A stretch of DNA of 64,000 bases from Lepraria neglecta (lineage: Eukaryota > Ascomycota > Lecanoromycetes > Lecanorales > Stereocaulaceae): assembly GCA_033220425.1 (NCBI GenBank), contig CM065653.1, forward strand, positions 1,550,001-1,614,000. The letters are read 5' to 3'. A program made the position numbers and the translations under genes. The notes beneath the pieces were generated by a model, which saw nothing but the letters and a program-made list of their open reading frames with translations, was not told the DNA's origin and ran no database searches. Of the stretch, positions 10,182 through 48,864 are shown in pieces; positions within the stretch are counted from its first letter, which is position 1, and each line of letters starts with the position of its first letter.

Positions 10182-13100
10182 TCAAAGTGAGTCCGGAGGA
10201 AGCCACGTCCATCCTCCAGGTGTCAGTACCCATCTCTCAAGCTCATGCCCGCTTGGTGGATACTCTTCAGCCCCATACGCAACAAGAAGCCTTATCATCT
10301 CCTCTCTAACACTACTAGCAACCTTAGACTTCCTTGCAGCATTCAGAGCACAACCGAACCTTCCACCTTTCGTATTGGGGTTGGCGCCGTTCTCCAGAAG
10401 GACATTAGCGAGCTCAGTGCGCCCATAGAAAGCAGCAGCCTGTATAGCCGATCCAAATTCGCCGCCCTGGATGTTGAGATTGGCTCTTTTCTCGAGCAAA
10501 AGTTTGAAGATCAGCATATTTCCGCTGCATGCGGCTGCCTGGACGAATGAGCCGTAGCGGCTGCCTTGAGCGTTGATTGCGACGTTCTTGCTCATCATGG
10601 AATTGAAGAGCTTAACTTTGCCGCGGCCTATGGTTTCCTGAACAGCACTGCCGCTGCGGGCGTTGACGTCCACATCAGGTTGTTCAAGTAGTAATAGTGC
10701 TATATCCTCGTGGCCCTGGCACACTGCTGTGTGGAGAGCTGTCGCCTGGTCATTGTCTTGCAGGTATGCCTTGGCATGATAATCTAAGAGTAGTCGAACA
10801 TTTGTAATATTCCCGTTCTGCGAGGCTCTATGGAGTGGTGTTCGGTTGTCGTCTCCTTGGGCATCAACATTTGCACCTCTCTCTAGAAGCAATCGATGCA
10901 CCGTGACATCATCGTCAGAAGCGGGACCATGTAAAGCGGTGTTTCCGTAAGCGTCGCTAGCGCCGACAGGTGCACCAGCATCTAGAAGCAGCTTGACCAC
11001 GTTTTTGTAACCAAGACCAGCGGCGCGGAATAAGGGCTGAGCACCAAACTTGTCTTGAGCTGATACATTTACACCTCTCTTCAATAACAGCTCTGTTATA
11101 TGGTCATGCCCGTTCAAGGCGGCATGGTGTAAGGCCGTCCAACCATCGGCATCAGAATAATCGGGATCAGCCCCGCGATCTAGTAGGGTTTGTGCCAGCG
11201 AAGCGTGGCCATGTTGCGCAGCCTCATGGAGAGGTGTTCGCTTCTGTTGATCCTGGACGAAGATATCGGCATCAGAGTTCACCAACAGCGTGGCCAGCTT
11301 GGGATATCCTTGTCGACATGCAGTTTGAAGAGGACTACCGTAAGTTTCCATGAGTGCATTTACGTCCGCAGAGCGATGGATGAGAATCGTGACGATTTCG
11401 AGGTGACCCTCGACAGCTGCGGCGTGAAGGGCTGTCCCATAATCACCACTTCTTGCATTGCAATCAGCCCCTTGCTCTAGCAATAGATTCACCATGTCTT
11501 TGTTCCCACGGAAGGCGGCGATTTGTAGAGGATGGCCGTAGGTCCCTCCCTCAGCTGTGACATCAGCTCCGGCATCTACTAACATCTTGACCATTTTGAA
11601 AGAGCCCCTTTCAACTGCTGCATGCAAAGGACTCCCTGTTGCTCCACCTATAACATTCACATTGGCGCCAGAAGCAAGGAGTCGATCGACCACATCATCG
11701 GAGCCTGAATATGCACCAGCTTGGAGGCAGCTGTCGAACCTTCCACCGCGGAGGTTCGGGTCTGCATTGAGACGGAGAAACTTCTTCACAGCCTCGACAT
11801 TACCACCTTGGGCCGCGGCTTGAAGAGGAGTCCCAAACCTTGGGTGCACTGTTCTCAATTTTGAACTCTCACCATCATCAAGTAGACGCTGAATCGCGGT
11901 TGTGTCTCCTCGGAAAGATGCTGTCCAGATGTCGCCCTTCGCCAGCTGACTTGTGGTGTCTTTTCTATTCCGAAGTCCTACAGGGATTGTCTCTCTAGCA
12001 TATGGACTAGTAGATGTCTCTGGATAGGTGCTTTGGATGGCCTTATGATCGTCCGGTCGAAGCTTTTCGAGGACCTTTTCACTGAGATCCGGGTGGTTTG
12101 ATTTACCCAGATCAAAAGCAGGATGCGGCAACTTCCTGAGCCATCGCGAAAGGACTGTTCTCCATCGAAAGATTGAAATGGTGAGAACAAGAACGACAAG
12201 GAGTATAACAGCCACTCCGAGTCCAGTGTTGAGTCCATTGTTCCCGCCGGGCTCTTCAGGGACTTTCGTTAAGTGCGTAGGTGGCATGTCATCTCCACCA
12301 AGGCTTGCATTGACAGCTGGAGACTTTGAAGTAGAATGGTCGAAGTCGAGTTGTCTTCTGTAGGCGCCAGATGGGAGATCCCTCGACGTATGTGGAGGAG
12401 GCTTGTCAAAAGAGTGTAAAGCCTCCTCACACCGAGTACTCGTAATGTTTTCCTTCTAGAATTGCAAAGACTCATTAGCATTCGACGGTCAATGCTGATG
12501 GACGGCTATCATGAGGTAGAAAAATAAGGTACCGCATAAGCAGCACATCCTTTGATGTACTCATGATAAGCAGTCCATTTGGCTAATTCCAGTAGCTGCT
12601 TCTGATCATCCAGGCTAGCCTTCTCTGCGGCGAGAGACTCTCGCTCAGTCTGCAGGAGTTGGATTTCAGTGAGCAGGGACTCTTTACTGATATCCAAAGT
12701 GATGTTGGCAGCTTTGACCCCTTCAACGGCCTTCTGCAGCAGTGCCTTCTGCATTTCTGTAATGTTCACTTCTTGCTGGAACGATTGCCAATCGACACTT
12801 GTAGGTTGGTTGCTTGTCAGTACTGTGATGATCTGCAGGGCTAAGAGCACAACGTTGATTGTAAAGACAAAAAGCACTTGGGCAAAGGTCAGCTTTTTAT
12901 TAAGCACTTTTTTCCAGCCAGACTGGACAGCTTCGCGGAGTTGAGAGGTCACTGTAGAAGATCGACGGCCATTTGCCTCCACTTCTGCATCGCCTGAGGT
13001 CGGGCCTTCTTCCCCGCCCGATAATGCTGGCGATCCCGAGATGGTCGTAGATGAGAGGTCAACGTCGTCCAATCGGTCGTCGCCTTTGAGATGTGGCGAT

Positions 13101-40451: not shown

Positions 40452-42345
40452 TCAGTCTGCGGTAGATACCGTATAGAAAGGCTTCATGGCCTCCTCCAAA
40501 GGGAGGACCACATGCTCCAATACTTTGCGCTGGAACTGTGGAACCTTCAAATCAGCATCTGAGCATTCTGCCCCAAAGTCACAAAAGAGGCAGCCCACAA
40601 CTGCACGCTGGTACTGCTTTCCCATCTCCAGCTGTATCTGCTTGTGTAGCCGCAACGCCGTGAAATGTCTTGTCATAGCTGCTGTCCGTGCCAAATCACC
40701 CGGTTCTACGAGATCTTCAATCGGCTTGTTGTAAGCAATCTCAATCAGTACGACACCAAGCGTAAAGAGAGTCTCGTTCCGCGCAAAACCCTGTACTTGA
40801 GCAGCAGTCGTTGAGGAAGATACCGAAGACGTACGGCTTTTACTAGACGAGAACCGTCTAGAAATGTAGGGCTGAACGGGGCTTGTGGGACTTTGCGCTG
40901 TATCGCCCTCAGCTTCAGGGAGGTATTGAATATCTTGCTTGTCCCATCCCTCTAGCCATGGAGTAGAATGAAGCTGTAGTACTGTTGAACCCAGGGTAGA
41001 AGCTAGCTGGTGTTTGACACCCTGCGAGAAGGACTGTCTCTTCCATGCCCGTCCTGTCCTCGAACGACGACGGGAGGGCGACAGAGGCTCGCCAACATGG
41101 ATAGAGGCCATAGGCGGTTCGACATCGCTCCTTGGATTGACGCTGAAGAGACCATACCTAGTCTCCTTTGCATCAGAGAGGTATCCTAGACATTTCCCGT
41201 CATCCGGACGAGTTGTCTGTATGTTCTTGATCCAACGACATAGGTCTTTGATTTCCGTGTTATGATTTCCTACTATTTCCCTTCTGTTTCCTTGCTTGTG
41301 TGATGACGATGAGGAGGAGGAGGAGGGGGCTTGCGAGTTGGAAAGCTCAAAGCTGACACTCTTGTTTTCGGGGGCACGTGTTGTGGAGGCTTTCGATTGC
41401 CTAGACGATGGCTGTCAGCATTGGAGAGGTCAATAGCGTGGCAAATATATACTGCGATGGCTGTAGTGTGGGACCTGCACTCCCTCCAAGGCCCTTTGGT
41501 GCTTCAGGTACCGTTTGATTCTCGTCCTCTAGGCGTGCAAGCTCAGCTTCGCGCCAGTCTAGCGGCTGCCCACCCTTGTTTTCGTCCGCGGCAAATGAGA
41601 ACAAGAATTTGAAACGAAATTCGTCGTCGCTCGCTTTGCCAGCTTTTGCTTGAGGAGACCTCCGGGCCTCGAGTCGCAAATTGGCCAGATGCGGGGTCTT
41701 GCAGTCGCAGTGCCACCCACGAGAAAGCGCTTCATGGAGGTTCAGAGCGCATTCTCGTACTTTGCCGAATGCCTCCATCCCACCTTTGAATTGGCGTGTA
41801 GGCGCCAGTCTCAAGCTCTGTGCTTGCAAGGTCTCCAACTCAGCAATTCTCGCACTCAACCTGTTGAGTCCTGCTTCACCGCGTGCTCTCGAAAGGAATT
41901 GCTTGATTGGCTTTAACAGGTGGCGACGCTTGAGATCCTTTGCATCGGTTTACTTTAATGGTCTTCGTTCTCTTCGATGGGAAGATTGACTCACATCGGA
42001 ATTCAGGATCTTTTCCAGCTCAAGCATCATGCCCCGGACATCTTCTAGAATCTCGGTGAAGGACTGATATGACTCTCCAAGATGTTCCTCGAGCTTGGTT
42101 GCTATATGGACGTCTCTCCATGCTTCCCCATCTGGATGGTCAAGCAGCTCTTTCAGTTGCGCGTCCGACACCAGTGAGGAGAGCAGCTCCTCGATAGTGT
42201 TGAGAAATATGTTCCGCTGAGTCTTGAAGCTTCTCTCAAGCTGTCGTACCTCTCTCATGGCCAGGCTTGCTTTGTATTGCTCGATGCTGGCTGTGACAAT
42301 CGGCACGATGCCTAGTATGATTCCTAGAATCTCAAAACCTATCAT
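40452..42345 (-). CDS. DUF7580-family protein, HeLo-like N-terminal helix bundle
   Basis: About 600 residues in three exons. The start at 42345 gives MIGFEILGIILGIVPIVTAS and QYKASLAMREVRQLERSFKT, the N-terminal hydrophobic helix and helical bundle typical of DUF7580 proteins, which resemble HeLo-type domains. The C-terminal DUF7580 part has LHSTPWLEGWDKQDIQYLPE, a Ser-rich loop, NETLFTLGVVLIEIAYNKPI and RAVVGCLFCDFGAECSDADL, recalling a degenerate kinase-like C-lobe. The second intron was placed as GTATAT..GTCTAG because this restores the frame into SKASTTRAPENKS. Such proteins occur near fungal NLRs and are suspected in allorecognition or immunity; that role is inferred. The gene is divergent from the NLR, 421 bp away, and appears intact. 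Confidence 0.75.
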
Positions 42346-42766
42346 TGCGATTGTTTGACCGAGATTAGTTCTATGAGCAGGAGTGAATAAATGCCTTTGT
42401 CGATGAAACAAATGGCTGGCGATAGTAGCCTTCTCTATTTCGTATCGCTCACTACCGCAATTACTAATAGATACACCACCCACACTTATTCTTCCTTATC
42501 TCGGGGACGGCAAGGCAAAAACAAGGCAACTGCTTTAAACGCCCTATCGAGGAGTGTGGCTTGCAGCAAGTGAGGGGGCAATCGCGGATCTACATTACAC
42601 ATTTGTCTCCCACTCTTGCGCATCGTGTCTCAGCCTCATTGATCCCACCTTTCCAAGGGACATGATTCCGTCCACTAGGCGCGAACCTTGCCAGACCTTG
42701 CCCATACCTCTCGTACCATTCTTTAACGTTGTTATACACAATACGCCGAAGCTCTGTGGACACCGA
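42346..42766. promoter_or_regulatory. Divergent promoter between the DUF7580 gene and the NLR
   Basis: A 421-bp segment serves both start codons, so the two genes are likely co-expressed. No defined operator was recognised. Open frames extend into it, but none carries a recognisable domain. Confidence 0.5.
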
Positions 42767-45700
42767 ATGGCATTTGTCAAGCTCGATGGCTCCATTGCGG
42801 GGCTCTTTCGAGACTGTCAAGGGACGCTGGATACACTATGTGATAATCTGTCGGAACTTCCTGAAGATGCCCCAGATGAGCCAGAGTATCAAAGATGTAA
42901 CGATGAAGCGGGTCGACTGAGAATGTGGGACGCCGAGACTGGTGCCAAAGAGGGCCAGTTGGATTATGCACTCCGGAGATCGTCCAGGCTTCGTGATGGA
43001 GTTCTAGAGCTTTTGCAGGATTTGAGGGATTTGAGTGCTCAAGGTCAGTAACATGTTCCCTGTAAAGAGGTTTCGACTTAACGCAGATCTAGCTGTTTCG
43101 ATCTTTTCGGGAGCCGATGCAAAAGCTATCGATGAGAATGCAGGGCCAAAGATTGCTGGCCTGGCCTCAGAGCGTGACTCTTCAGCTTCCTCAGAACCGG
43201 ACAGTTTTCTCTCCATGAGCAGCACAGATTTGTCGTCTCCGCTCCATCAAACGATCACAGAGATGCGCGAGATCGTGACATGTCTCTTGCGACAGACGCC
43301 TTCTTTGCGAGATCCATCATCTCAGGACACAAGGAGGCAGGCCAGCTACGAAGGCGCTGATTCTTTCGACCAGTCTCACGTCAGGAGTAAATTTCCAAAC
43401 GCCAATCCCGAGCTATTGAATCGTCTGGGGACTGCAAATTGGAAACGCAGACAACAGCTCATGGTCCTCCGGGAAGCGAATGAGGATGATGTGTTGGCGA
43501 GTGATCGCAACGACGGCGAGAACAGTCCAAATGAAAAGCAAGAGATGGACTACACTTCCGAAGCCGATGTTTCGATGTATAGCACTAGTTATGGCACGGG
43601 TCTGGGGAGCCAAACGACTGGCGAATGGACATCTTCCTCAGACAAGAATTCTAAGATTGGAACGGCTTTGACTTCTCTGACCGACAACCCAGGACAAAAG
43701 TTACAGAACTTCAACAGACCTGTTATGGCAGCCCAGGTCCATCGTCTAAAGTTGCCACGTCCTCCAGAACCCAATTCATCTTTCGAGGGGCGCCAATTCA
43801 AATGTCCATACTGCTTCCATGGATTAGTGGAAGTCTATTCCTCTTTATCTTGGAAGTAAGCTATTCACTTGTGTCTCAATACCACGAACCTTGCTAATAA
43901 TTGGTCATCTAGAGAGCATGTAATGAGAGACCTCGAACCTTACATGTGTACTTTTGGTGGCTGCATACGACCTGGCAAGACGTACGGTATGAGGGGAGAC
44001 TGGATACAGCACGAAATCGATGTACATCAAAAGAAGAAGACATGGGCCTGCAGACCCTGTGCAACAGAATTTGCAACAAGGAAAATGTTCGATGATCACA
44101 TGCGGAAGCTCCACTCTGGACTTGTCACCGAACACCAGCTGGAGGCATTTGCTGAAATGTGTGAACAAGCCTCAGGCAAACTGGAAAGTAGAAATCGATG
44201 TCCACTTTGCTTCGAAGAGTGCCGCAGCGATAGGAAATTGCGCAAACACTTGGCTGACCATCTAGAACAAATTGCTCTCTTCGCTGCGCTTCCAGCTAGA
44301 CCACGGCTTGACAGCGATGATGAGCTTGACCTTATGGAAGACTCCGGATCAGATGGAGAGACTCGAGCTGAAAGTGTTATGCTCGACGTGCCGGAAGACC
44401 TGAGAACTCAAGACGAAACACGGCGCGCCACAGTGACAAGATTCCTCGGGGAACAGGCTGAATCCAACTCAATCGAGAATATTCAAGCTCCACAGGAAGT
44501 CCCTCCTTCGCTAGAGGGCCTGTCCATTTCCAAAGACGCCTCCGTACAGTTCCCTGTCATGACTATCGGGCATCCGCCTAACGAATCCTTCTATGGACGT
44601 GACTATGCCATATCCGAAATACACCGGCGCCTGTCTGTTCCAGGCGATATATGCATAATCTACGGAGTCGGGGGTGTAGGCAAAACTCTGACGGCTGTCG
44701 AGTATGCAAATCGCTACACGGAAGCATACGATTGCATATTCTGGCTTCAAGCTGATACTGCTCCGGGTTTAGCGGAGTCTTACGGCGAGATTGCCCATGC
44801 CCTTCGACTTGTACAGGGAAATGAAGACCAAGGTCAAATCATCGAACTTAGTCGAGACTGGATGGAGAATACCAGTAAGTCAAGTGTCTTGAAAAGCCAA
44901 TTCATATCTTTCTAATCTTTCGCAGCACGGCGATGGCTGCTCATTTTCGATAATGTCGAAGATTGGGACTTCGTACTTCAATATCTCCCTTGCGACTTCT
45001 ACCAAAGCAACGGTTCTGCTATAGTCACTACTCAGGACTCTAGTCTAGTCACGAAGGTTAAGCACAATTACGAGTTGGAGACTTTTGGAGAGGAGGATGG
45101 GTCTACAATGCTACTTCAATATCTGGAACGACCAGATCCTAAAAAGGACCCTGAGCGCGAATTGGCTCAGCAAATCTCAGGACTTGTTGGAGGCTTGCCG
45201 GTAGCTATATCTCACGTGGCAGGCTATGTCTCATATTCGCAATGCTCGTTGTCGGAGCTACTCGAGATATTCAAGCAAAGACGTCGGCATACTGGAGCTG
45301 CGACCACCGAGGACGACGATCTCCCTGCTTCTTTCCGACAGGCATCCTTCAGTTACGATGAGACATTAGCCATGGTCTGGAACGTCACTTTGCGAGAACT
45401 AGGGACTGACGCTCGAGATTTGACCTACATCCTAGCCTACCTTAATTGTGAAGCTGTACCCGAATCTATGCTATGCGCTGTCCACCCAGAGGCCTTCCTC
45501 GAATTTCTTGACTCGAGGGAAAGAATTCGGTGCGTCCAAAACCGATCTTGACATCTCAAAGTAACCTCCTAGCTGACTACTCGCAGATACGAACGAATGA
45601 AGGGGCCTCTTCTGAAACGCCGGCTGATTCAAGCTAAAGAGATTGAAGGCGAGCCGTGCCTTTACTTGCATCGATCGTTACAGCGCAGCATCAGAGATAC

Positions 45701-47027
45701 CACCGCCAAAAGTGCCGCGCAAAGGCAAGTAGTCTTTGAGCAGGCTCTCAATATCGTGCGCAAAGTCTTTCCCCTCTCCTCGCCTATCCAGGTACCTGAA
45801 CCATCAAGTTGGCGCGAGCATCAAAAGTTATTACCCCATGTGATGAGCTTGCAAAGTGCCTTCGTGGAAGCGAAAGGTGGTATTCGGGGCGGAAGGAAAT
45901 TTGCCTCACTACTCTCGGATGCTGGAATCAACCAGTGGGCACGCGGCTTCACTCGAGATGGCTTACTGCTACTGGAGACCGCTGAACAGGTCTTGGACGA
46001 GATTTCCTCTGATGCCTCAAGATCTTTCGACGACTCTGACATTATGCGTGCTGACATCAACGCGATTATAGCCTTAATGCATGACAACACGGGCATATCT
46101 ACGCGAGCTGAAGGTCTCAAGAAACGCAAAATAGCCCTTGATATTCGGAAGAAGCGAACGGAGAGTCTGACACAGGTCTCCCGGAACGAAGAGATTCTCC
46201 TCTACAATGCTTGGCTAGACTATTCGATTTCATTGCTCCAATATAACAGGTACCAGGAGGCAGAGCCAATCTTGAGCAGTTGTCTAGAGAAGTATCGCCA
46301 ATGGGACACGCCCGAGGAGATACCCTTCGAGTACGCGAAGTTCGACCATAAGATGGCCTTTGTCAGAATGTACCAAGGACGATACGATGAAGCTCTCAAA
46401 TTAGGTCAGCTGGGTGTCTATCATATGGACAAGACAGGGAATGAAGAACTCATGTTGCGATTCAAGTTTGACTTGGCTTGCACACACTTGCAAAGCGGGG
46501 ACGCCGATAAAGCACTTGAGATGCATAAGGAAGTCTTGGAGAAACGCATCATTGTGTGCGGCAAGGTCAACGAGAATACCCTTCAGAGCTACTACGCAGT
46601 TGGTGCTCTACATGAGCTCCGGGGCGAGTTCGCGGAAGCCGAGTAAGTCTAGTTCCAACACATCTGTCCTCATCTTCCAGCCACAGAGACGCCTCAATTC
46701 GTGCTATTGATTGATCACTAATTCCTCTCAACCCACAGAACCTGTTTCCGCCACGCCCTAGACCAACGCCGTGTAGCATACTGGTCGATTGAAGCCATCG
46801 CGCGTACCCAATACCATTTTTCCCTTGTTCTCCGCGCCCAGAAGAAAGAGCTAGAAAGAGCTACGAAGAATTACGAAGAAGCCAAAGCCACACTTTCCAG
46901 ACTGCTTCCCCTAGACCTGCCAGATAAATTAAAGGATGTAAAAGATGACGGTGTGTTGTTTGATCACTTGCTGACGGTTTACGGCGCAAGATTCACTGGG
47001 ACAGAATTGTTAAAATTCATAAGATAG
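42767..47027 (+). CDS. Fungal NLR/STAND protein: C2H2 zinc fingers, NB-ARC, TPR
   Basis: Six exons (42767-43043, 43087-43855, 43913-44874, 44926-45529, 45587-46642, 46739-47027) sum to 1318 residues plus stop. The N-terminal about 90 residues are helical (FVKLDGSIAGLFRDCQGTLD). A Ser-rich linker leads to about four C2H2-like fingers (residues 328-460): CPYC, CTFGGC..HEIDVH, CRPC..HMRKLH and CPLC..HLADH, ending LEQIALFAALP. The NB-ARC domain has FYGRDYAISEIHRRL, Walker A GVGGVGKT (about residue 600), Walker B RRWLLIFDNVED and a GLPVAISHVAGYV motif. From about 870 to the end are TPR-like helical repeats (YQEAEPILSSCLEKYRQ, GRYDEALKLGQLGVYHM, GEFAEAETCFRHALDQR). By architecture it is a signal-transduction ATPase of fungal non-self recognition. 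No lesion is seen. Confidence 0.85.
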
Positions 47028-47602: not shown

Positions 47603-48864
47603 TATGAGAAGCCTGCTTGATCGTCTGCAGGGCTTGAGTCCGGTCATCGCCGAGATATGTCGCATCTCAGGTACGCCCGGTCCATTGGTGTTCTTCACCA
47701 TAGCGAAATAATCTACACTCATAACCATGGATATCGGAATGTTGAAGCTCGAATCCCGCCTGATGAGGAAACAATTTATCACATCGCTTCACTTAGCAAT
47801 TCTTTTACTGCTGCGGCAATAGGCATCTTGGTAGAAGAAGGCAAGATGAAATGGAACACTCCAATTCGCCAGATCCTACCCGATTTTAAGCATGTGAATG
47901 AGACTATCAACCATAAAGCAACCATAATAGACTTCATGAGCCATAGAACTGGTCTAGCGCCGAAGAACAGGCTATGGGCGCACGAATTTGCTGGTGTGAA
48001 TTTGCGCGCAAGGAAACGCTAAAGATGACATCGTATCTGGAGACTGTGTTTGTCTTTCGAACGCGCTGGCTCTACAATAATTGGGGGTTTTGCTGTTGCT
48101 GATCAAATCATACAACGGCTGAGTGGCCAGAGCTGGGACACGTTTCTCCAGGACCGAACCTTGACACCTCTCGGGCTGACTCGCACAACGAGCGATCATT
48201 CGCAGAAGACTCATAATGTTGCACAGGCCTACATGGCGCTATCCAATGGGACACGTTTTCGTCTACCGCGGCCTGGTGTCGAAGATGGTGTGATCATGGA
48301 AGGCGGTCCGCGATCTCATTATATACGTTCAGAAAATGATGGAAGCAGAGGATGACCAAAAGTCCAGAAAGGCGACCGCAACCGAAGGTTCGCCCTTGAA
48401 GCAGGTTCCGACTTTACTTCAAGGTCATATCGACCTATCGCCAACGCCGCTAGAGCTAGAGAGATCGTATGCTGGATCCTATTCTAACGTGATCAAGAAC
48501 TGGCATATGGAGTTCTTCGTGCAGGACAATGACTTGTCATCAAGACAACTTTTCACAGTCGTATAGGTTCGAACATTACCACTACGAAACCTTCTCCTGG
48601 TTGCTTACCCGCGATGAAACCGCTCATCGGGGCCTCTTCCCGATGACTGTGACTGATTACTATCTGCTCGCCTTCGGAAAGAGCGAAGACGGGCAGATTA
48701 ACCACGTTGTCTGGAAGCATGATGCGAGCGTTCGTGAATGCGAGATCTTTACACGACTTTCTGGGTTGGCTCCTGGCAAGGAGCGGCGGCCAGCGGCAGA
48801 CAGAATCTGCTTGGGGCTAAGGGCTAAAGCCGCAAAATTGGTTAAATGCAGACGCTTCGGATAA
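47603..48864 (+). pseudogene. Broken beta-lactamase-fold serine hydrolase, copy 2
   Basis: A relative of the hydrolase at 33.5-35.0 kb. In successive frames it reads LLDRLQGLSPVIAEICRISG, SIGVLHHSEIIYTHNHGYRN, IPPDEETIYHIASLSNSFTA, HKATIIDFMSHRTGLAPKNR, RWLYNNWGFAVADQIIQRLS, FLQDRTLTPLGLTRTTSDHS and, near the end, FEHYHYETFSWLLTRDETAH. The SxxK nucleophile motif reads SLSN here, so the Lys general base is Asn, while YNN is kept. At least three frame changes separate the blocks. It is dead on two counts. It is not a recent copy of the first, since the shared blocks are well diverged. Confidence 0.65.

Follow-up and report, generated by a model that had tools for sequence, protein, structure and literature searches.

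A divergent DUF7580/zinc-finger gene pair that recurs across the Lepraria neglecta genome: a possible two-gene sensing unit

We study two neighboring genes in the genome of the fungus Lepraria neglecta (42 Mb in 11 contigs), which lie in a 64,000-nucleotide stretch (C8:1550001-1614000, hereafter the window) and are transcribed away from each other. One gene, which we call D, encodes a DUF7580 protein; the other, Z, encodes a protein with zinc fingers, an NB-ARC domain and TPRs (Table 1). We find that this arrangement recurs at about ten dispersed loci, and we tentatively interpret it as a two-gene sensing unit.

Results

The gene pair of the window

Both gene models were assembled by hand with GT..AG introns and without transcripts, and each yields one open frame. 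A self-written gene caller, using the codon bias of long frames from the window and the fetched loci, recovers both D introns and all five Z introns; its faults are one spurious last intron in Z and an overrun of the DUF7580 stop. The TAA that the genome search flags inside Z falls within intron 3. An initial annotation of this DNA had described two intact genes diverging from a 421-bp gap, and both frames are indeed open on either side of it.

The domain content proposed there also holds. For D, DUF7580 is the sole Pfam match above cut-off (E 1.5e-23) and the N-terminus is hydrophobic (Kyte-Doolittle mean 1.94 across 22 residues). For Z, Pfam returns NB-ARC (E 1.4e-13, 51.1 bits against a cut-off of 23.5) and TPR_12 (E 6.2e-15) together with weak DUF7779 and C2H2 matches, and the GVGGVGKT and LLIFDN motifs are both present (Walker motifs, like the HRD and DFG motifs below, are taken in their generally known form). 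Single zinc fingers stay below the Pfam cut-offs, and the finger region is recognized by a profile of seven paralogues at E 8.3e-38 (leave-one-out, database size set to 14000). Z thus has the NB-ARC domain and the C-terminal superstructure-forming repeats that define a fungal NOD-like receptor (NLR). Pfam finds no canonical N-terminal effector domain in Z at E 1.

Table 1. Features of the D/Z gene pair, in window positions (aa, amino acids).
Feature	Position	Strand	Description
D gene	42345..40452	-	DUF7580 protein, 594 aa; 3 exons: 42345-41995, 41937-41453, 41400-40452
Z gene	42767..47027	+	zinc-finger NB-ARC TPR protein, 1318 aa; 6 exons: 42767-43043, 43087-43855, 43913-44874, 44926-45529, 45587-46642, 46739-47027
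Intergenic gap	42346..42766	no strand	421 bp, start codon to start codon; presumed shared promoter
D N-terminal helical domain	41719..42345	-	aa 1 to ~190, hydrophobic start; HeLo-like by profile, moderate evidence
DUF7580 domain	40479..41766	-	aa 175-586; apparently a degenerate kinase C-lobe, without HRD aspartate, without DFG
Z N-terminal segment	42767..43043	+	aa 1-92, common to Z family; family profile related to N-terminal half of HeLo
Z zinc-finger region	43776..44297	+	~aa 325-477, common to Z family; split by intron 43856-43912
NB-ARC domain	44607..45359	+	aa 581-814; split by intron 44875-44925
TPR region	46206..46769	+	~aa 1078-1233; no tandem array of near-identical copies

The pair recurs across the genome

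All counts come from this one genome, and since the searches score the best candidates only, family counts are lower bounds. They give at least 20 DUF7580 matches in 19 genes, 30 NB-ARC matches and 55 NACHT matches. With the first 517 aa of the window Z as query we find paralogues of its zinc-finger part at eleven further loci, and a second paralogue used as query adds one more (C3:0.491M), for a total of 13 Z-type loci including the window. A DUF7580 gene lies within 5 kb of Z at ten of these 13, where the chance per locus is 0.0045 (P ~1e-21 for the linkage; 1e-19 without the window). Nine of the pairs are divergent (window, C2:3.49M, C5:2.18M, C6:1.96M, C6:3.36M, C6:3.43M, C7:4.16M, C8:1.86M and C8:4.24M) and one is tandem (C1:5.22M). 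The remaining Z-type loci have no DUF7580 neighbor: C4:0.706M carries both family segments of Z, C8:1.731M the finger segment alone, and C3:0.491M is the third. At an eleventh pair, C7:3.817M, the divergent partner has the Z N-terminal segment (E 1.9e-7 for the one sequence, 1.5e-4 in the six-frame set) and no finger match. The start codons are roughly 224-421 bp apart in the eight pairs where both could be placed, and both members are open in seven pairs.

The window pair belongs to this family: in the same leave-one-out comparison D is recovered at E 4.1e-36 and the Z N-terminus at 5.6e-11, and the pair has the D N-terminal domain, the Z N-terminal segment, the fingers and the divergent adjacency. 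What is conserved is the combination of D, a DUF7580 protein with a helical N-terminal domain of its own, and Z, a protein carrying a conserved N-terminal segment and C2H2 fingers. Joint action of the two genes, as the initial annotation proposed, is strongly supported by this recurrence, with D identity of just 19-28% outside the closest two of seven pairs.

The DUF7580 genes themselves fall into classes. In seven, HeLo (PF14479) is matched further upstream within the gene region, and one (C1:4.849M) is unclassified; we considered these HeLo-type genes as pair members and rejected them, there being no Z match within 20 kb at any of the eight loci. Among the other eleven, eight share a distinct N-terminus that starts about M-x-G-x-E-x-A-G-L-x-L-A-x-x-P-L (two of the alignment rows were spliced by hand). 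The profile of these eight D N-termini also matches C8:1.858M (E 1.2e-13) and gives no match at C6:1.963M, where DUF7580 is degenerate. A genome query with residues 1-232 of one D protein recovers, at E 0.1, its own locus and seven others; all eight are divergent pairs, so that a D-type N-terminus without Z is found at none of them.

Three loci have individual features. At C8:1854446-1858843 the D gene is split, with a patatin-like and ankyrin-like frame between N-terminal exon and body (read from the translation). In the pair at C6:1962430-1963823 the DUF7580 gene is degenerate, its match containing three TGA, and the Z-ankyrin gene has no detectable Z N-terminus. At C1:5218758-5220768 a Peptidase_S8 (subtilase) match follows DUF7580 in the same frame, in tandem with the Z gene at C1:5214296-5217465.

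Evolution of the pairs

How could so many pairs have arisen? Over seven pairs the identities of D and Z correlate (r 0.92, with 4 of 5040 permutations as high), and with C6a or C6b removed r is 0.66 (32/720) or 0.71 (2/720). C6a and C6b are 48 and 47% identical, with 19-28% for D and 21-33% for Z among the other pairs. The D and Z trees concur on two groupings, C6a+C6b and, without strong support, C2+C8b, and differ otherwise; the grouping of the window with C5 in the Z tree may be a long-branch artefact. From the correlated identities it is plausible that the pairs descend from one ancestral pair; most simply, both genes of an old pair would have been copied together. The frames that flank the pairs seem different among the loci.

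Common descent would also be expected if ancestral neighbors had been block-copied several times with the two genes functionally unrelated. We regard such hitch-hiking as improbable: eight deeply diverged pairs on several chromosomes keep their order, orientation and short gap, and the genome search does not find the D N-terminal domain outside pairs.

The C-termini of Z are exchangeable

The other end of Z differs from locus to locus. C2H2-like fingers are found in all eight aligned Z proteins, and what follows them is swapped among loci: NB-ARC/TPR (in the window alone), TPR, ankyrin, more fingers or a second DUF7580. At C1:5214296-5217465, Z carries 11.5 near-identical ankyrin repeats, and at C5:2173792-2174627 the zinc fingers are followed by 6.6 TPR copies in an array (92% nucleotide match) that has no NB-ARC match nearby. 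The Z of C6:3.43M ends in classical C2H2 fingers (zf-C2H2, 33.9 bits against a cut-off of 25.2), which we take to be Crz1-like, and that of C6:3.36M has additional, weaker finger matches. The C2 copy (C2:3483808-3488595) has a second DUF7580-like stretch at the C-terminus of Z, after a repetitive charged region, and a separate D gene adjoins it.

This modularity bears directly on the unit proposed in the initial annotation, a DUF7580 gene beside an NLR gene, with a dedicated NLR as sensor and the DUF7580 protein as executor. The window pair itself has this form, and two-gene clusters of NLR and HeLo genes are known (PMC12881547, available part). However, an NB-ARC match lies within 5 kb of one of the 19 DUF7580 genes, that of the window, and a NACHT match of none, where 0.4 would be expected by chance for both together; among the 13 Z-type loci, too, the window is the only one with NB-ARC that close. 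Since D and Z stay together elsewhere with no NB-ARC, an arrangement specific to the window NLR earns little credence from us, and we reject the DUF7580-NLR pair as the conserved unit: what stays constant in the partner is its N-terminus with the zinc fingers, to which NB-ARC/TPR is one of several C-terminal additions.

With fingers in every aligned Z protein, and with Z ending in further fingers at both C6:3.43M and C6:3.36M, the pair could instead serve the regulation of gene expression. We consider this unlikely, if worth keeping in mind: the Z proteins of other loci have ankyrin, TPR or NB-ARC/TPR at their ends, in two cases with the near-identical repeats typical of recognition, and D combines a hydrophobic start with some HeLo-like register.

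DUF7580 resembles the C-lobe of a kinase

In six HeLo-type genes Pfam places a Pkinase match that overlaps DUF7580 (E 2.8e-6 to 0.011, never reaching the cut-off); HeLo and DUF7580 share one frame in five of them and occupy two frames at C3. PK_Tyr_Ser-Thr matches four of the six, one above cut-off. A DUF7580 profile of these six genes reaches 266 distinct PDB sequences at E <=0.01, the best 60 of which are kinases (top match 2.4e-8; MLKL, 4m68, 7.6e-6). The DUF7580 profile of the paired type (D) aligns with that of the HeLo type over 235 columns at E 1e-18, such that D is connected to kinases through a chain of profiles, from D to HeLo-type DUF7580 to kinases.

The catalytic residues are absent. 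In an alignment read by eye, the HRD aspartate is found in none of the eight D rows and none of the six HeLo-type rows, where its position is held by G, A, G, N, N and G, and DFG is absent. These data fit DUF7580 as a pseudokinase C-lobe, the C-lobe being the only part matched. Because DUF7580 matches a kinase C-lobe yet would lack the catalytic aspartate, D resembles MLKL, in which a helical domain is joined to a pseudokinase. In this way DUF7580, a family without a named function, gains a fold assignment and a genomic context.

The N-termini of D and Z may be distant relatives of HeLo

To compare the N-termini with HeLo we use a profile of nine stop-free HeLo matches of the L. neglecta genome. 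For the Z N-terminal profile the alignment spans HeLo 7-95 (Prob 64, E 6.4e-5); for that of D, with all eight rows, it spans HeLo 140-180 (Prob 37, E 3.6e-4, 40 columns). The observed scores of 34.8 (Z) and 33.5 (D) compare with a best of 19.3 and 27.7 in 150 column/block shuffles of the HeLo alignment. When the window row is left out of the D profile, 153 columns fall in register (4-184 to 3-184, Prob 67.6), and without C6a and C6b 165 columns align (Prob 49.8). Taken singly, six of eight Z proteins and one of eight D proteins match the HeLo profile at E <=0.03; Pfam gives a weak HeLo match in one of eight Z proteins (E 0.072). From these profiles a distant relation to HeLo is likely for both N-termini and proven for neither. 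Homology between the N-termini of D and Z was also considered, and dropped when comparison of their profiles gave no match.

A possible two-gene sensing unit

We can now combine these elements. The reading that we favor, at somewhat less than an even chance, is that the pair forms a two-gene sensing unit, perhaps for self-defence, in which D would be an executor controlled by Z. Contact might be made through the helical domains, as suggested by the likely relation of both N-termini to HeLo. Our best guess for the purpose of the pair is non-self recognition, and we infer an immune or cell-death function.

Several observations weigh against this picture. At the level of the N-termini, the Pfam HeLo model (PF14479) finds no match at E 10 in any of the eight D proteins, the D and Z of the window show no individual match to the HeLo profile, the D alignment drops to Prob 6.7 and 39 columns without the C7 row, and, as said, the D and Z profiles do not match each other. 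An AlphaFold model of the D N-terminus (single sequence, intron read through) is all-helical with a mean predicted local distance difference test score (pLDDT) of 42.7 and speaks neither way, so that the HeLo-like N-terminus claimed by the initial annotation has moderate support, from profile comparison; the DUF7580 exon, also modeled from a single sequence, reaches pLDDT 33. The paired-type DUF7580 profile by itself matches no kinase in PDB. No 6-8-base word common to the eight promoter gaps rises above shuffles (shortest gap taken as 221 bp), and the TPRs of the window form no near-identical array. The base is sequence from a single genome, and the losses of genes hardly tell which of the two partners would do harm.

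This last point matters for another interpretation, in which D is a poison, Z its antidote, and the pair spread through drive without being kept for defence. Its compact divergent layout and many copies would fit a selfish element, as would the absence of any D-type N-terminus without Z and the Z of C4:0.706M, which has both segments and no DUF7580 match nearby. We nevertheless hold it to be improbable. C4:0.706M is the sole clean locus with Z alone; the two loci with a damaged D, C6:1.96M and C8:1.86M, have no detectable Z N-terminal segment either. Most pairs are old by D identity, with both members open in seven, and an antidote needs no recognition-type C-termini. For the same reason we do not accept the asymmetry of loss (D never alone, Z sometimes) as proof of a harmful D: at two of the three loci with damaged or missing D, Z also has no detectable N-terminal segment.

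Relation to known systems

The sensing-unit reading has precedents. In the Podospora systems HET-S/NWD2 and HELLP/PNT1, an NLR gene adjoins the gene of a membrane protein of HeLo or HeLo-like type, and PNT1 is named after its PP-NB-ARC-TPR layout (PMC12881547, available part). The window pair likewise places the gene of a helical protein beside an NLR gene; it differs in the apparent pseudokinase lobe of D, in the fingers of Z and in that other Z genes have no NB-ARC match nearby. The same source, in the part available, places some HELL domains in proteins with a kinase or pseudokinase domain. D, as an N-terminal helical domain with a putative pseudokinase, is comparable to these and to MLKL, as are the seven L. 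neglecta genes with a HeLo match and DUF7580, but D has a diverged N-terminus, not called HeLo by Pfam, and a constant divergent partner. A third likeness is to the gasdermin/protease clusters HET-Q1/HET-Q2, which join a compact executor to a repeat-bearing controller (PMC12881547, same part): the C1 copy has DUF7580 in frame with Peptidase_S8 beside a Z-ankyrin gene, and may connect D/Z with the proteases that control fungal gasdermins. Neither window protein has a gasdermin or protease Pfam match at E 1, a search that a gasdermin too diverged for Pfam would escape.

By analogy with these clusters, D/Z is probably a variant of the known fungal sensor/executor type. Zinc fingers occur in 57 of 4613 NLRs in a survey of Sordariales, whose 13 head-to-head pairs are all NLR-NLR (PMC12258605, available part). 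Unlike in D/Z, a DUF7580 partner is not described there, the string 'DUF' occurring 0 times in the main text. In the literature collection searched, of 5.39 million papers, the term DUF7580 is not found, and among the papers listed no title or abstract opening describes a DUF7580/zinc-finger pair. D/Z looks like an undescribed kind of two-gene sensing unit. Which stimuli activate the sensors of fungal death pathways is a major open question (PMC12881547, available part). The D/Z family joins an MLKL-like layout to exchangeable recognition ends, and the partner of the putative executor is known from position alone, so that binding, control and death become testable for each pair separately.

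Surroundings of the window and other loci

The initial annotation had also placed the pair among mostly broken accessory genes, a claim that we looked at by spot checks only. Immediately downstream of Z, a beta-lactamase-like gene (47621-48864; PF00144, E 1.8e-19 for one frame) lies in several short frames. Repeat-induced point mutation as the reason for broken neighbors is rejected, as the window carries no signature of it. On the minus strand, 10182-12455 holds a long open frame of 757 aa with ankyrin repeats, another possible recognition gene. Elsewhere, HeLo and NACHT matches lie 857 bases apart (start to start) at C7:23756-25086 and C9:20735-21951, some 20-25 kb from the contig starts and with stops inside three of the four matches, which suggests a duplicated contig-end segment with a HeLo-NACHT gene.
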